51,838 nt of DNA from Verrucomicrobiales bacterium (lineage in GTDB: Bacteria > Verrucomicrobiota > Verrucomicrobiia > Limisphaerales > CANJXF01), in NCBI GenBank assembly GCA_947478865.1, contig CANJXF010000028.1, forward strand, positions 1 to 51,838, written 5' to 3'. The notes below the pieces were generated by a model that made no database searches, was not told where the DNA came from, and saw only the letters and a list, made by a program, of their open reading frames with translations. Below, in pieces: positions 49,263-51,838 of this stretch; position 1 is the first letter of the stretch, and every line of letters begins with the position of its first letter. The position numbers and the translations under genes are program-made.

Positions 49263-50477
49263 TTACGCGCGCTTTCCCTGCGCATAAGTTTGTTCCAGAA
49301 AATCAATGGCTTTGCGGCTGATCGCGCGCCAGTCCAGATCGGCGCGGACGCGGTCGCTCGCCGTTTTGCCGAGCTTCGCAATCACTTCGGGCGATTCATC
49401 AAACCAGCTCACCGCTTTGCGCCCCAGATCAGCGCCGTTGAATTCAGAGAAACGCACCAGCGGCAAATCGTGGAAATAACGTTGCACGCTCCGCAGCGGC
49501 GTGGAAACCAGCGGGATTCCCAGCGCCGCATACTCAACCGCCTTGGCCGCGAACGCGCAGTGCGTCCCGATCGATTCTTCATACGGAATGATTCCCACGC
49601 TTGCCGCCGCCAGGTGTTTGGGCACGTCCTGATAGGCCACGAATCCGGTCGATTCAATTTTTGCCGCCGGAATTTCAGCCTGCGCGCGATTGAGAAACTT
49701 TTCCATCGCCGCCGTGCGATGGCCGACAAAGCGAAACACCGTTTCCGGGCGCGACTGGAAAATGGTCCGCACCGCGTCGAACGCGATCCCGCCCACGTGA
49801 TGGAAATCGAGCGACCCGTGCATCGTGACCACGGGAGCTTTGGCGGAACCGCGCGCGATTCCCTCCTGGTATTTGAAAATCGCCGAATCGTAACCGTAAT
49901 AGATCGGGAGAATTTTTTCGCGCGGATAACCGGTTTCGGCAAACAGATCAGCGAGCGTGTCGGAAACGGTGAAGACGCCGTCCGCGTTGTTGCGTTTCGG
50001 TAATTTGAGTTCGAACTTCATCAGCGAGGCCACGACTGGACGAGGCGCGATATATGCCGGCCACGTTTCCATGAATGCCGTCAGGTAATCCAAAAAATTC
50101 ATGAACACCGGAACGCCCAGCGACCGTTTCAAGCCGCCCGCCGCCACTGCGGAAATCGCGTGCTGTGAAAGCACCGCGTCGAATTTGATTTTCCTGGCCT
50201 TTCGCTCCACGAGCCGCTGGAGAAACGAGGGATAGAGCAGATACTTAAAATTTCGCAGTTTCGTGTAGCGCCCCATTTCCCACGTGGTGAATTCATGCAG
50301 TTGAACGCCGAATTTTTTCCGCACCATTTCCGGTTCCGCCAGCTTCGGGCAAAAGAGATGAACCTGATGACCGCGCTGCACGAGTTCTTCGACGAGATAA
50401 ATGGCTTCCGCTGAGCCGCCGCCGGAAGGCGGATAAAACGGCTCATGCGTTAAAAAGGCGATGCAAATGGGCTGCAC
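49263..50477 (-). CDS. GT4-family glycosyltransferase
   Basis: 404 residues of the GT-B fold, group 1 glycosyltransferase. N-terminal half: FYPPSGGGSAEAIYLVEELV, QRGHQVHLFCP (donor-side Rossmann). C-terminal half: MHGSLDFHHVGGIAFDAVRT, FRFVGHRTAAMEKFLNRAQA, STGFVAYQDVPKHLAAASVG and IIPYEESIGTHCAFAAKAVE, YAALGIPLVSTPLRS, which contains the E-x7-E-type motif positions of GT4 enzymes. Likely adds a sugar in surface glycan or LPS synthesis; donor unknown. It is convergent with the methyltransferase gene and divergent from sufT. Confidence 0.85.
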   Translation of the reverse strand: MQPICIAFLTHEPFYPPSGGGSAEAIYLVEELVQRGHQVHLFCPKLAEPEMVRKKFGVQLHEFTTWEMGRYTKLRNFKYLLYPSFLQRLVERKARKIKFDAVLSQHAISAVAAGGLKRSLGVPVFMNFLDYLTAFMETWPAYIAPRPVVASLMKFELKLPKRNNADGVFTVSDTLADLFAETGYPREKILPIYYGYDSAIFKYQEGIARGSAKAPVVTMHGSLDFHHVGGIAFDAVRTIFQSRPETVFRFVGHRTAAMEKFLNRAQAEIPAAKIESTGFVAYQDVPKHLAAASVGIIPYEESIGTHCAFAAKAVEYAALGIPLVSTPLRSVQRYFHDLPLVRFSEFNGADLGRKAVSWFDESPEVIAKLGKTASDRVRADLDWRAISRKAIDFLEQTYAQGKRA

Positions 50478-50553
50478 GGGCGCGAGGCTAGACGATTCGC
50501 CGAGCGTGTTTCAATTCATTATCCACTGGAAAGCGGCAGTTTCCTGGTTGGAT

Positions 50554-50656
50554 GGAGCGCGGGTCTGTGACCGGCAGCGGCTTCGCTGAACAGAAAACAT
50601 TTAAATTAAGATGGAGCGGTTTGAAACATTTGGAACCGCTGCGGCTCATTGAGCCG
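50554..50656. repeat. hairpin-rich extragenic repeat upstream of sufT
   Basis: Two perfect hairpins: AGCGGTT (50615-50621) with AACCGCT (50634-50640), and CGGCTC att GAGCCG (50642-50656). Just upstream is GGAGCGCGGGTCTGTGACCG (50554-50573). A GGAGCGCGGGT.. start with a TGACC core is a form I have seen in dispersed verrucomicrobial intergenic repeats, but I could not compare copies here. It lies in the 270-base divergent gap between GT4 and sufT. Confidence 0.6.
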
Positions 50657-50747
50657 TCCCCAATCAAACTGGGCGACTCCGAAAATCCACTGGCGTTGCC
50701 GTCAACCTTGGTTAGATTGCTGTCTCGACGGCTTGGCCAAAAATTTT

Positions 50748-51311
50748 ATGCATAACGTAACTTCCGTAGAACTCACCCGCGATTGCGACGCAGTCCAGAT
50801 TCCTGTTGGCACCAGCGTCACGCTGCCTGCCGGAACCCCGGTGGACATCACGCAGACTTTGGGCGGAACCTACACCGTTCACGCGCAAGGCGGTTTGTAT
50901 CGCATCGCCACCAAGGATGCTGACGCCCTGGGCATCAACGAATCCACTTCCACCCTCGGCGAAGCCGTTTTGGAGAAACCAACGGGGCCCGCCGGACCGG
51001 TGAACGAGAAGGAAGTCTGGGAAACCTTGCGCACCTGTTACGACCCGGAAATTCCGGTGAATATCGTCGATCTTGGTTTAGTTTACGACATGGTCATCGA
51101 ACCATTGCCCACCGGTAACAGCCAGGTGCTGGTGAAAATGACTCTGACCGCGCCCGGTTGCGGCATGGGCGGTGTCATTGCGGGAGATGCTCAAACCAAA
51201 CTGCTCACGTTGCCCGGCGTGGACGAAGCCACCGTCGAAATCGTCTGGGATCCGCCGTGGCATCAATCGATGATCACCCCGGCGGGACGAGGAATTCTCG
51301 GGTTGGAATAG
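50748..51311 (+). CDS. sufT: SufT/MIP18-family Fe-S assembly protein
   Basis: 187 residues from ATG 50748. The N-terminal ~90 residues (VELTRDCDAVQIPVGTSVTL, PAGTPVDITQTLGGTYTVHA) are the SufT-specific extension. The C-terminal half is the DUF59/MIP18 domain: VWETLRTCYDPEIPVNIVDL, GLVYDMVIEPL, VLVKMTLTAPGCGMGGVIAG with the conserved CGM cysteine, and VDEATVEIVWDPPWHQSM. It helps mature Fe-S proteins. No other suf gene is next to it. It is divergent from GT4 and preceded by hairpin repeats; an in-frame upstream start at 50649 would run into those repeats. Confidence 0.88.
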   Translation: MHNVTSVELTRDCDAVQIPVGTSVTLPAGTPVDITQTLGGTYTVHAQGGLYRIATKDADALGINESTSTLGEAVLEKPTGPAGPVNEKEVWETLRTCYDPEIPVNIVDLGLVYDMVIEPLPTGNSQVLVKMTLTAPGCGMGGVIAGDAQTKLLTLPGVDEATVEIVWDPPWHQSMITPAGRGILGLE

Positions 51312-51408
51312 TCCGCGACGGAATCTCACATTTCATCACGGCAGGGATGATTTCCAAGTTGTCCCTGATTTCTGTTGCGGATGATTCTGAAGGCGCGGCG
51401 ACTTGTCC

Positions 51409-51537
51409 GATCCTGAACATCCCGACTTATCCCTGTTGAAAATATTGTAACTCCGTGCCTTCGCCTGAGCGGTGAGACTGCTCGTTCGGTGCTGGTTTGC
51501 AATTGCTGAAACAGGGATGCACGGGATAAACCGGATC
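51409..51537. repeat. 129-bp rod-like imperfect inverted repeat
   Basis: Paired arms, from outside inwards: GATCC/GGATC, ATCCC/GGGAT, ATCCCTGTT/AACAGGGAT, TTGTAA/TTGCAA (one G-T pair), GTGCC/GGTGC (two G-T pairs) and GAGC/GCTC, separated by nearly symmetric internal loops (5x5, 5x4, 7x7). Positions 51409-51437 pair with 51510-51537. The 452-base stretch 51312-51763 has no supported gene; short open frames on the minus strand cross the structure and look spurious. Confidence 0.6.
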
Positions 51538-51610
51538 GCCAGATTCCATCCTGAACCTCCTTTCCATCAGTGCTAAAATTCCTACTCCGTTCCACACCCC
51601 AAATAACAAG

Positions 51611-51646
51611 AACACAAAGGAGGACGTCTCGCTCCTTTGTGTTTTT
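51611..51646 (+). terminator. Rho-independent terminator downstream of the rod-like repeat
   Basis: AACACAAAGGAG (51611-51622), 9-base loop, CTCCTTTGTGTT (51632-51643), then TTT/TTC. A 12-bp perfect stem. It lies 300 bases after sufT and 74 bases after the inverted repeat, so it could end the sufT transcript or an independent RNA. Confidence 0.85.
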
Positions 51647-51763
51647 CGTTTTGTGTTAGGTCGCAGAATCTGGCTGTGTGAGGTTAACTTCAGCGGCAAG
51701 GTGGCTTTGGTGTCCTCAAACGAGACTGGCTTGGTAAGAATCAGGCACGAAGCCCTGGGCTTT

Positions 51764-51838
51764 TTACTCTTTTCGATTTAGTTCTTGCTCTAAAGCGGTG
51801 ATTTCACTGGGTTTGCCTGTCAAATTCAATTTGGCATA
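51764..51838 (-). CDS. possible 3' end of a minus-strand gene cut by the window edge
   Basis: From the window end, the minus strand reads AKLNLTGKPSEITALEQELN and then RKE before TAA at 51764-51766. The composition is helical and looks coding, but 24 open codons can occur by chance. No family is recognised. Confidence 0.35.
   Translation of the reverse strand, partial: YAKLNLTGKPSEITALEQELNRKE

Follow-up and report, generated by a model that had tools for sequence, protein, structure and literature searches.

Two worn copies of a dispersed palindrome probably account for a rod-like fold downstream of sufT in a Verrucomicrobiales bacterium

Introduction

6S RNA is transcribed, binds RNA polymerase and templates pRNA. 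Its rod-like fold with internal loops (RF00013) is shared by one segment of contig CANJXF010000028.1 from a Verrucomicrobiales bacterium (assembly GCA_947478865.1), of which we analysed the whole 51,838-nucleotide stretch, called the window below. Unlike 6S RNA, this segment matches no RNA family, and the 6S match of the genome lies elsewhere. The original prediction had offered two readings: a non-coding RNA of the 6S type followed by a terminator of its own, or a widespread extragenic repeat.

Several described repeats resemble the second reading. REP, BIME and REPIN elements are short, mostly intergenic palindromes that occur many times per genome, often in oppositely oriented pairs, and the repeat reported here shares these traits. 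In the part of the source drawn on here, REPs measure 20–40 bp and GTAG repeats are reported for the verrucomicrobium O. terrae (PMC3733652). In contrast, the units of our repeat measure 57–92 bp, have arms with a 9-bp period, seldom carry the GTAG/CGTC tag and show no link to Y1_Tnp genes in this genome or at 30 Y1_Tnp loci. Bacterial MITEs are likewise small, non-coding, bounded by inverted ends and scattered between genes, whereas each arm of our repeat is itself an array of one motif, target-site duplications do not stand out and no clean empty site was found. A further relative is found among genes of the GxxExxY family (TIGR04256, PF13366) flanked by inverted repeats, one of which is bounded by arms of the kind described here. 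The arms in the window, however, enclose no such gene, and most of the 30 GxxExxY loci that we scored have other flanks.

Results

The rod-shaped fold at 51409–51537 is real. The features of the region are as follows.

50649–51311, + strand: upstream gene for a SufT-type Fe-S cluster assembly protein (open frame; TIGR03406, 219.3 bits, cut-off 202.6)
51340–51437, no strand: repeat unit U1; right half (51409–51437) intact and ending in ATCCCTGTT, left half worn, with a putative start at 51340
51342–51367, + strand: small hairpin CAGGGATGA...TTGTCCCTG directly past the sufT stop, from a consensus terminator scan
51409–51437, + strand: left arm of the rod fold, the right half of U1
51438–51509, + strand: core between the arms (72 nt), weakly folded; similar on its left side to the core of the copy on contig C11
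51510–51537: right arm of the rod, formed by the left half of U2, with an exact pattern match at 51510–51536
51510–51574, no strand: repeat unit U2; left half intact, right half worn
51608–51646, + strand: terminator-like hairpin of 15 outer pairs, one of them G-U, followed by a T run

On the + strand, 51409–51646 folds at -76.1 kcal/mol (z -5.0; 0/200 dinucleotide shuffles as stable) and the rod alone reaches z -5.6 (0/200 shuffles equal its fold), z-scores that refer to a stretch picked beforehand as a striking hairpin within 51.8 kb and are uncorrected for that choice. The opposite (-) strand of 51409–51646 is unremarkable (z -0.9, 32/200 shuffles). Folded separately, the 72-nt core is weakly above chance (z -1.8, equalled by 10/200 shuffles) and U2 gives z -0.2 (75/200), so the extra stability of the rod sits in its arms. 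The six paired segments counted in the original prediction are roughly correct for the fold of the stretch, and the near-symmetric internal loops that it described coincide with the NNN positions of the repeat pattern given below.

It had also been claimed that no gene explains the region, and this holds. Three ORFs of 89–93 aa lie over it, with zero Pfam matches up to E = 1 and NCBIfam matches at chance level only (best E 0.07); without a convincing match to either library, a protein-coding reading was rejected.

One rival reading is a discrete regulatory RNA of the 6S type, which would bind RNA polymerase and stop at the terminator; the long rod, its internal loops and the terminator-like hairpin 70 bases further on would suit it. 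However, an Rfam scan of the window, rod included, returned zero families at gathering score, and a permissive scan of 51250–51838 up to E = 10 gave eight weak matches, none of them to 6S. The RF00013 match of the genome sits at C40:11131–11311 (locus L108), at 68.5 bits against a cut-off of 46.4. Promoters of the sigma-70-like type numbered 0 in 50000–51838, where 1.0 is expected by chance; moreover, the arms belong to a dispersed repeat, and the rod is lost in the paralogue on C11. With no covariance-model match at the site and an RF00013 match over cut-off on C40, we rejected 6S RNA: this half of the original prediction did not survive, and a 6S-type RNA here is extremely unlikely.

The other half, a widespread extragenic repeat with GGGAT/GGATC-periodic arms, proved right. 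BLAST of 51320–51660 against the own genome of the window found a copy on contig C11 that is 74% alike and runs from the left arm through the core into the inner end of the right one, and a copy on C2 that is 83% alike over query bases 191–242, on the right side of the rod. On its own, the C2 copy forms a complete hairpin of 66 bp with outer ends AACAG. From these two copies we derived the search pattern AACAGGGATNNNNNGGATNNNCNGGAT, i.e. a half-array AACAGGGAT(NNNCAGGAT)2. Counting genomic copies, as had been proposed, gave 31 matches at up to three mismatches in the 4.4-Mb own genome (11, 10, 4 and 6 with 0, 1, 2 and 3 mismatches) and 0 for the reversed pattern. Contig C47 holds 12 of the 31, several as facing pairs across ~65 bp. 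Intact copies are inverted arrays of 57–92 bp, built of 9-bp-periodic blocks: AACAGGGAT, then NNNCAGGAT twice, then the mirror image. Each arm of the rod is half of such a palindrome, of ~65 bp. One copy on C2 and one on C47 fold as near-perfect hairpins (z -6.6 and -6.5).

The genes around the C47 repeats are glycosyltransferase-like, as named by eye. At loci L042 and L043 (G000:C47), gaps between such genes carry AGGATTA-, CGAAGGGG- and AACAGGGAT-type periodic repeats side by side.

The repeat reaches far beyond this genome. Of 387 genomes from the phylum, 17 contain the unit at up to one mismatch, that of the window among them; six of these show one match each, perhaps by chance in some cases, and one has 63. 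The motif varies by genus and reads AACATGGAT, AACAAGGAT or AACAGGGAT. The reversed control gave three matches in the 387 genomes, all in G331. A search for the full palindrome with one genome per species returned at least 116 stretches, and among the 80 matches listed the record titles, mostly of metagenome bins in which mis-sorting is possible, span about ten phyla. They name Acidobacteria, Chloroflexi, Geobacter/Pelobacter, Nitrospirae, Nitrospinae, Planctomycetota, Sumerlaeota, Latescibacterota, Lentisphaeria and Verrucomicrobiota; the record of Geobacter sp. AOG1 is a 3.7-Mb scaffold. When the own genome and 57 genomes of the same order were searched at the DNA level, copies turned up in the own genome only, so the site itself has no orthologous comparison. 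We found no description of the repeat in the open PMC literature, a limited library, searched by sequence string and keyword.

Other observations concern individual genomes. The backwards-pattern matches in G331 perhaps belong to another periodic repeat. Near position 1500 of L059 (G246:C52), a long 9-bp repeat run with CTTATCCGC and CATATCCGG, possibly coding, contains the single unit match of its genome. By eye, loci L061 and L062 (G362 and G327, one genus) carry a like palindrome upstream of seemingly the same gene, and some copies may therefore persist across species.

Palindromes lie mostly between genes in other genomes: frames of at least 200 aa span 12/107 palindromes against 1802/2320 random positions, and frames of at least 120 aa 28/107 against 1979/2320. 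In the own genome, where 9 units were checked, a frame of at least 150 aa, whether genuine or spurious, runs across 3 of them. The orientation of the neighbouring genes is unbiased, with convergent, divergent and tandem gaps all used without preference: among 88 gaps that hold a palindrome 20% are convergent, and among 296 that lack one, 18%. Across 44 palindromes, the left flank is A-rich and the right flank T-rich, as in a bidirectional terminator, and some copies could thus end transcripts. The spacer, gene-spanning, gene-gap and GxxExxY-proximity counts use 116 palindrome stretches, to which the flank analysis adds nine.

The original prediction placed a 12-bp terminator 74 bases past the rod. 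A hairpin is indeed present at 51608–51646, with 15 pairs and at a distance of 70 bases. The consensus terminator scan omitted it because its loop limit was 8 bases, and listed instead 51342–51367, which is possibly the worn outer end of U1. Among 17 own-genome units, chosen by eye from the pattern matches, the unit in the window is the only one that has a terminator-like hairpin in the 160 nt beyond its ends; this count omits the matches on C3, C6, C10, C45, C74 and C79, takes approximate unit starts on C14, C43 and C86, and ignores T runs directly behind a unit's own stem. Since 16 of the 17 have no such hairpin nearby, the one at 51608–51646 appears to be an unrelated neighbour. The original prediction regarded many copies without terminators as evidence against its RNA, and this is in part what we see in the 16 chosen units. 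Together with the share of convergent gaps (20% against 18%), the lack of a hairpin and T run within 160 nt of these units led us to reject dedicated terminators. The hairpin would be an ordinary independent terminator, perhaps one that stops read-through from sufT. The TIGR03406 match in the sufT frame starts at residue 40, and the contig ends at 51838, so nothing is visible further downstream.

The rod forms because the repeat halves are mutually complementary: the right half of U1 (51409–51437) pairs with the left half of U2 (51510–51537). On this reading, the intergenic space downstream of sufT would hold, as U1 and U2, neighbouring and worn copies of a dispersed palindrome that is short and non-coding. 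Aligned with the window, the C11 paralogue retains 31 of the 45 pairs of the rod (22 of them unchanged, 8 with a one-sided change and 1 compensatory); 12 are broken and 2 gapped, and the paralogue adopts another fold, at z -1.0. The spacers (NNN) of 39 distinct palindromes, many of which share genomes, pair near the level of arms shuffled among elements: 0.38 against 0.39 at position 11 and 0.33 against 0.37 at position 20, with the largest excesses at position 12 (0.67 against 0.60, reached by 126/1000 shuffles) and position 10 (0.49 against 0.43, 48/1000). The paired blocks hardly vary and are therefore uninformative about structure. Since the paralogue folds differently and the spacers pair near chance, the fold is an apparent by-product of inverted motif arrays. 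What is conserved appears to be the 9-bp-periodic motif in an inverted array, the internal loops of the rod being unconserved spacers. We infer that conservation acts on a DNA motif array, which a protein would read, and not on the shape of an RNA.

The C11 copy bears on another reading, in which rod and core form a functional two-unit composite, dispersed whole, that acts as an sRNA or as a 3'-UTR element stabilising or ending the sufT mRNA. This copy has the same facing arrangement of halves, and its core matches on the left side, so that the two-unit composite may have spread as a single piece; the A-rich left and T-rich right flanks of canonical palindromes would also fit an element that ends transcripts. 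Yet only two such composites were found in the genome (E <= 0.001) and none in the 57 genomes of the same order, and the 14 broken or gapped pairs in C11 argue against a maintained rod. In other genomes, convergent gaps are not preferred, and the upstream stop is the nearer one in 33 of 55 tandem cases. We consider a functional composite unlikely.

A further reading is a REP/BIME element mobilised by a RAYT, a REP-associated tyrosine transposase. Such an element would, like our repeat, be palindromic, mostly intergenic and multi-copy with units in both orientations, and GTAG repeats are on record for O. terrae in the part of the source cited above. However, just one of the 39 distinct palindromes has a GTAG/CGTC tag close to an end, Y1_Tnp has 0 matches at E <= 0.001 in the own genome (a 97% complete assembly), and the unit is present in 0 of 30 Y1_Tnp loci. 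We rejected REP/RAYT on these three grounds; in addition, the units are about twice the REP size given in that part of the source. A RAYT-moved element is very unlikely.

Signs of insertion were looked for at the palindromes. A target-site duplication accompanies 32% of 44 palindromes, against 25% when shuffled (sd 5%), and none of the 5 sites queried (10 were prepared) gave a continuous empty site in a relative. Queries of joined flanks returned self-matches and other repeats within the flanks; at L075, homology to a relative breaks off ahead of the palindrome, with unlike sequence beyond. At L054, pieces of the flanks lie on one contig of G445. As candidate parent transposons, the analysis covered Y1_Tnp and GxxExxY genes.

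The GxxExxY genes are of interest owing to one locus in G080, where a 125-aa gene of this family (TIGR04256, 141 bits; PF13366, of the nuclease-like PD-(D/E)XK superfamily) lies exactly between two AACAAGGAT-type arms. In G381 (L093), a GxxExxY gene has units on both sides. The window could accordingly hold empty relics of a GxxExxY (PD-(D/E)XK-like) element class with the same kind of inverted periodic arms. From 46 matches we scored 30 loci, of which 26 remain after removal of two partial genes and two genes in much longer frames, none of the four passing the 99% line. In 17 of these 26 full-length loci, from 14 genomes, the inverted flanks beat 99% of mismatched flank pairs, as such a class would predict. 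On the other hand, 9 of the 26 are also above their own 99% line in the direct-orientation control, which indicates that GxxExxY flanks are repeat-rich in general. The arms of these loci are often short-period arrays, e.g. CACGAAAGA or CACAGAGG, and the repeat unit itself flanks the gene on both sides in 2 of the 30 loci; one more locus has it on a single side. Unit pairs 150–2500 bases apart are no more often converging (5, three of them at one place) than diverging (6) or same-sense (5). The 846 kb around 116 palindrome stretches contain one GxxExxY gene, at a distance of 1.5 kb from the nearby palindrome; in the own genome, the arms of the GxxExxY gene differ from the repeat unit, and in the window the space between the arms is the 72-nt core, with no GxxExxY gene. 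Relics of this class are thus a rather unlikely account of the window.

Other loci with periodic arms were seen along the way. At L008 (G000:C27:24310–24657) and L080–L107, GxxExxY genes are often inside inverted 8–10-bp-periodic repeats whose motif differs by gene. At L135 (4365–5724 of an Anaerolineales record), converging units 1.3 kb apart surround a 274-codon frame that is not recognisably GxxExxY. By eye, the four-helix-bundle (TIGR02436) genes at L010 (G000:C47:26114–26431) and L011 (G000:C18:44740–45069) also seem to lie inside imperfect inverted periodic repeats.

Discussion

We put the probability of our main reading at about 0.7: a dispersed palindrome is present in the window as two copies, facing each other and both worn, the rod is a by-product of their mutual complementarity, the DNA array is what is conserved and is spread in trans by a protein, and the terminator-like hairpin is independent. 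The fold is real and probably owes its existence to the two copies. The protein that spreads the copies in trans would be of a mobile-element or repair type. The original prediction is partly supported overall.

A wider reading, possible if doubtful, would make the AACAGGGAT(NNNCAGGAT)n arrays one motif class of an undescribed cross-phylum mobile element. Such an element would have 8–10-bp-periodic arms, a nuclease-like reader for which GxxExxY is a candidate, and both empty and gene-bearing forms, and the window would hold two decaying empty ones.

As a candidate regulatory RNA, the region is ordinary; the underlying repeat is less so. The family is unusual in its cross-phylum reach and its build from motif arrays, and, in contrast to the GTAG/CGTC REPs, no mover is known for it. 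Should the repeat be spread by a protein that reads the 9-bp arrays, that protein and a possible link to the orphan GxxExxY family would be directly testable.
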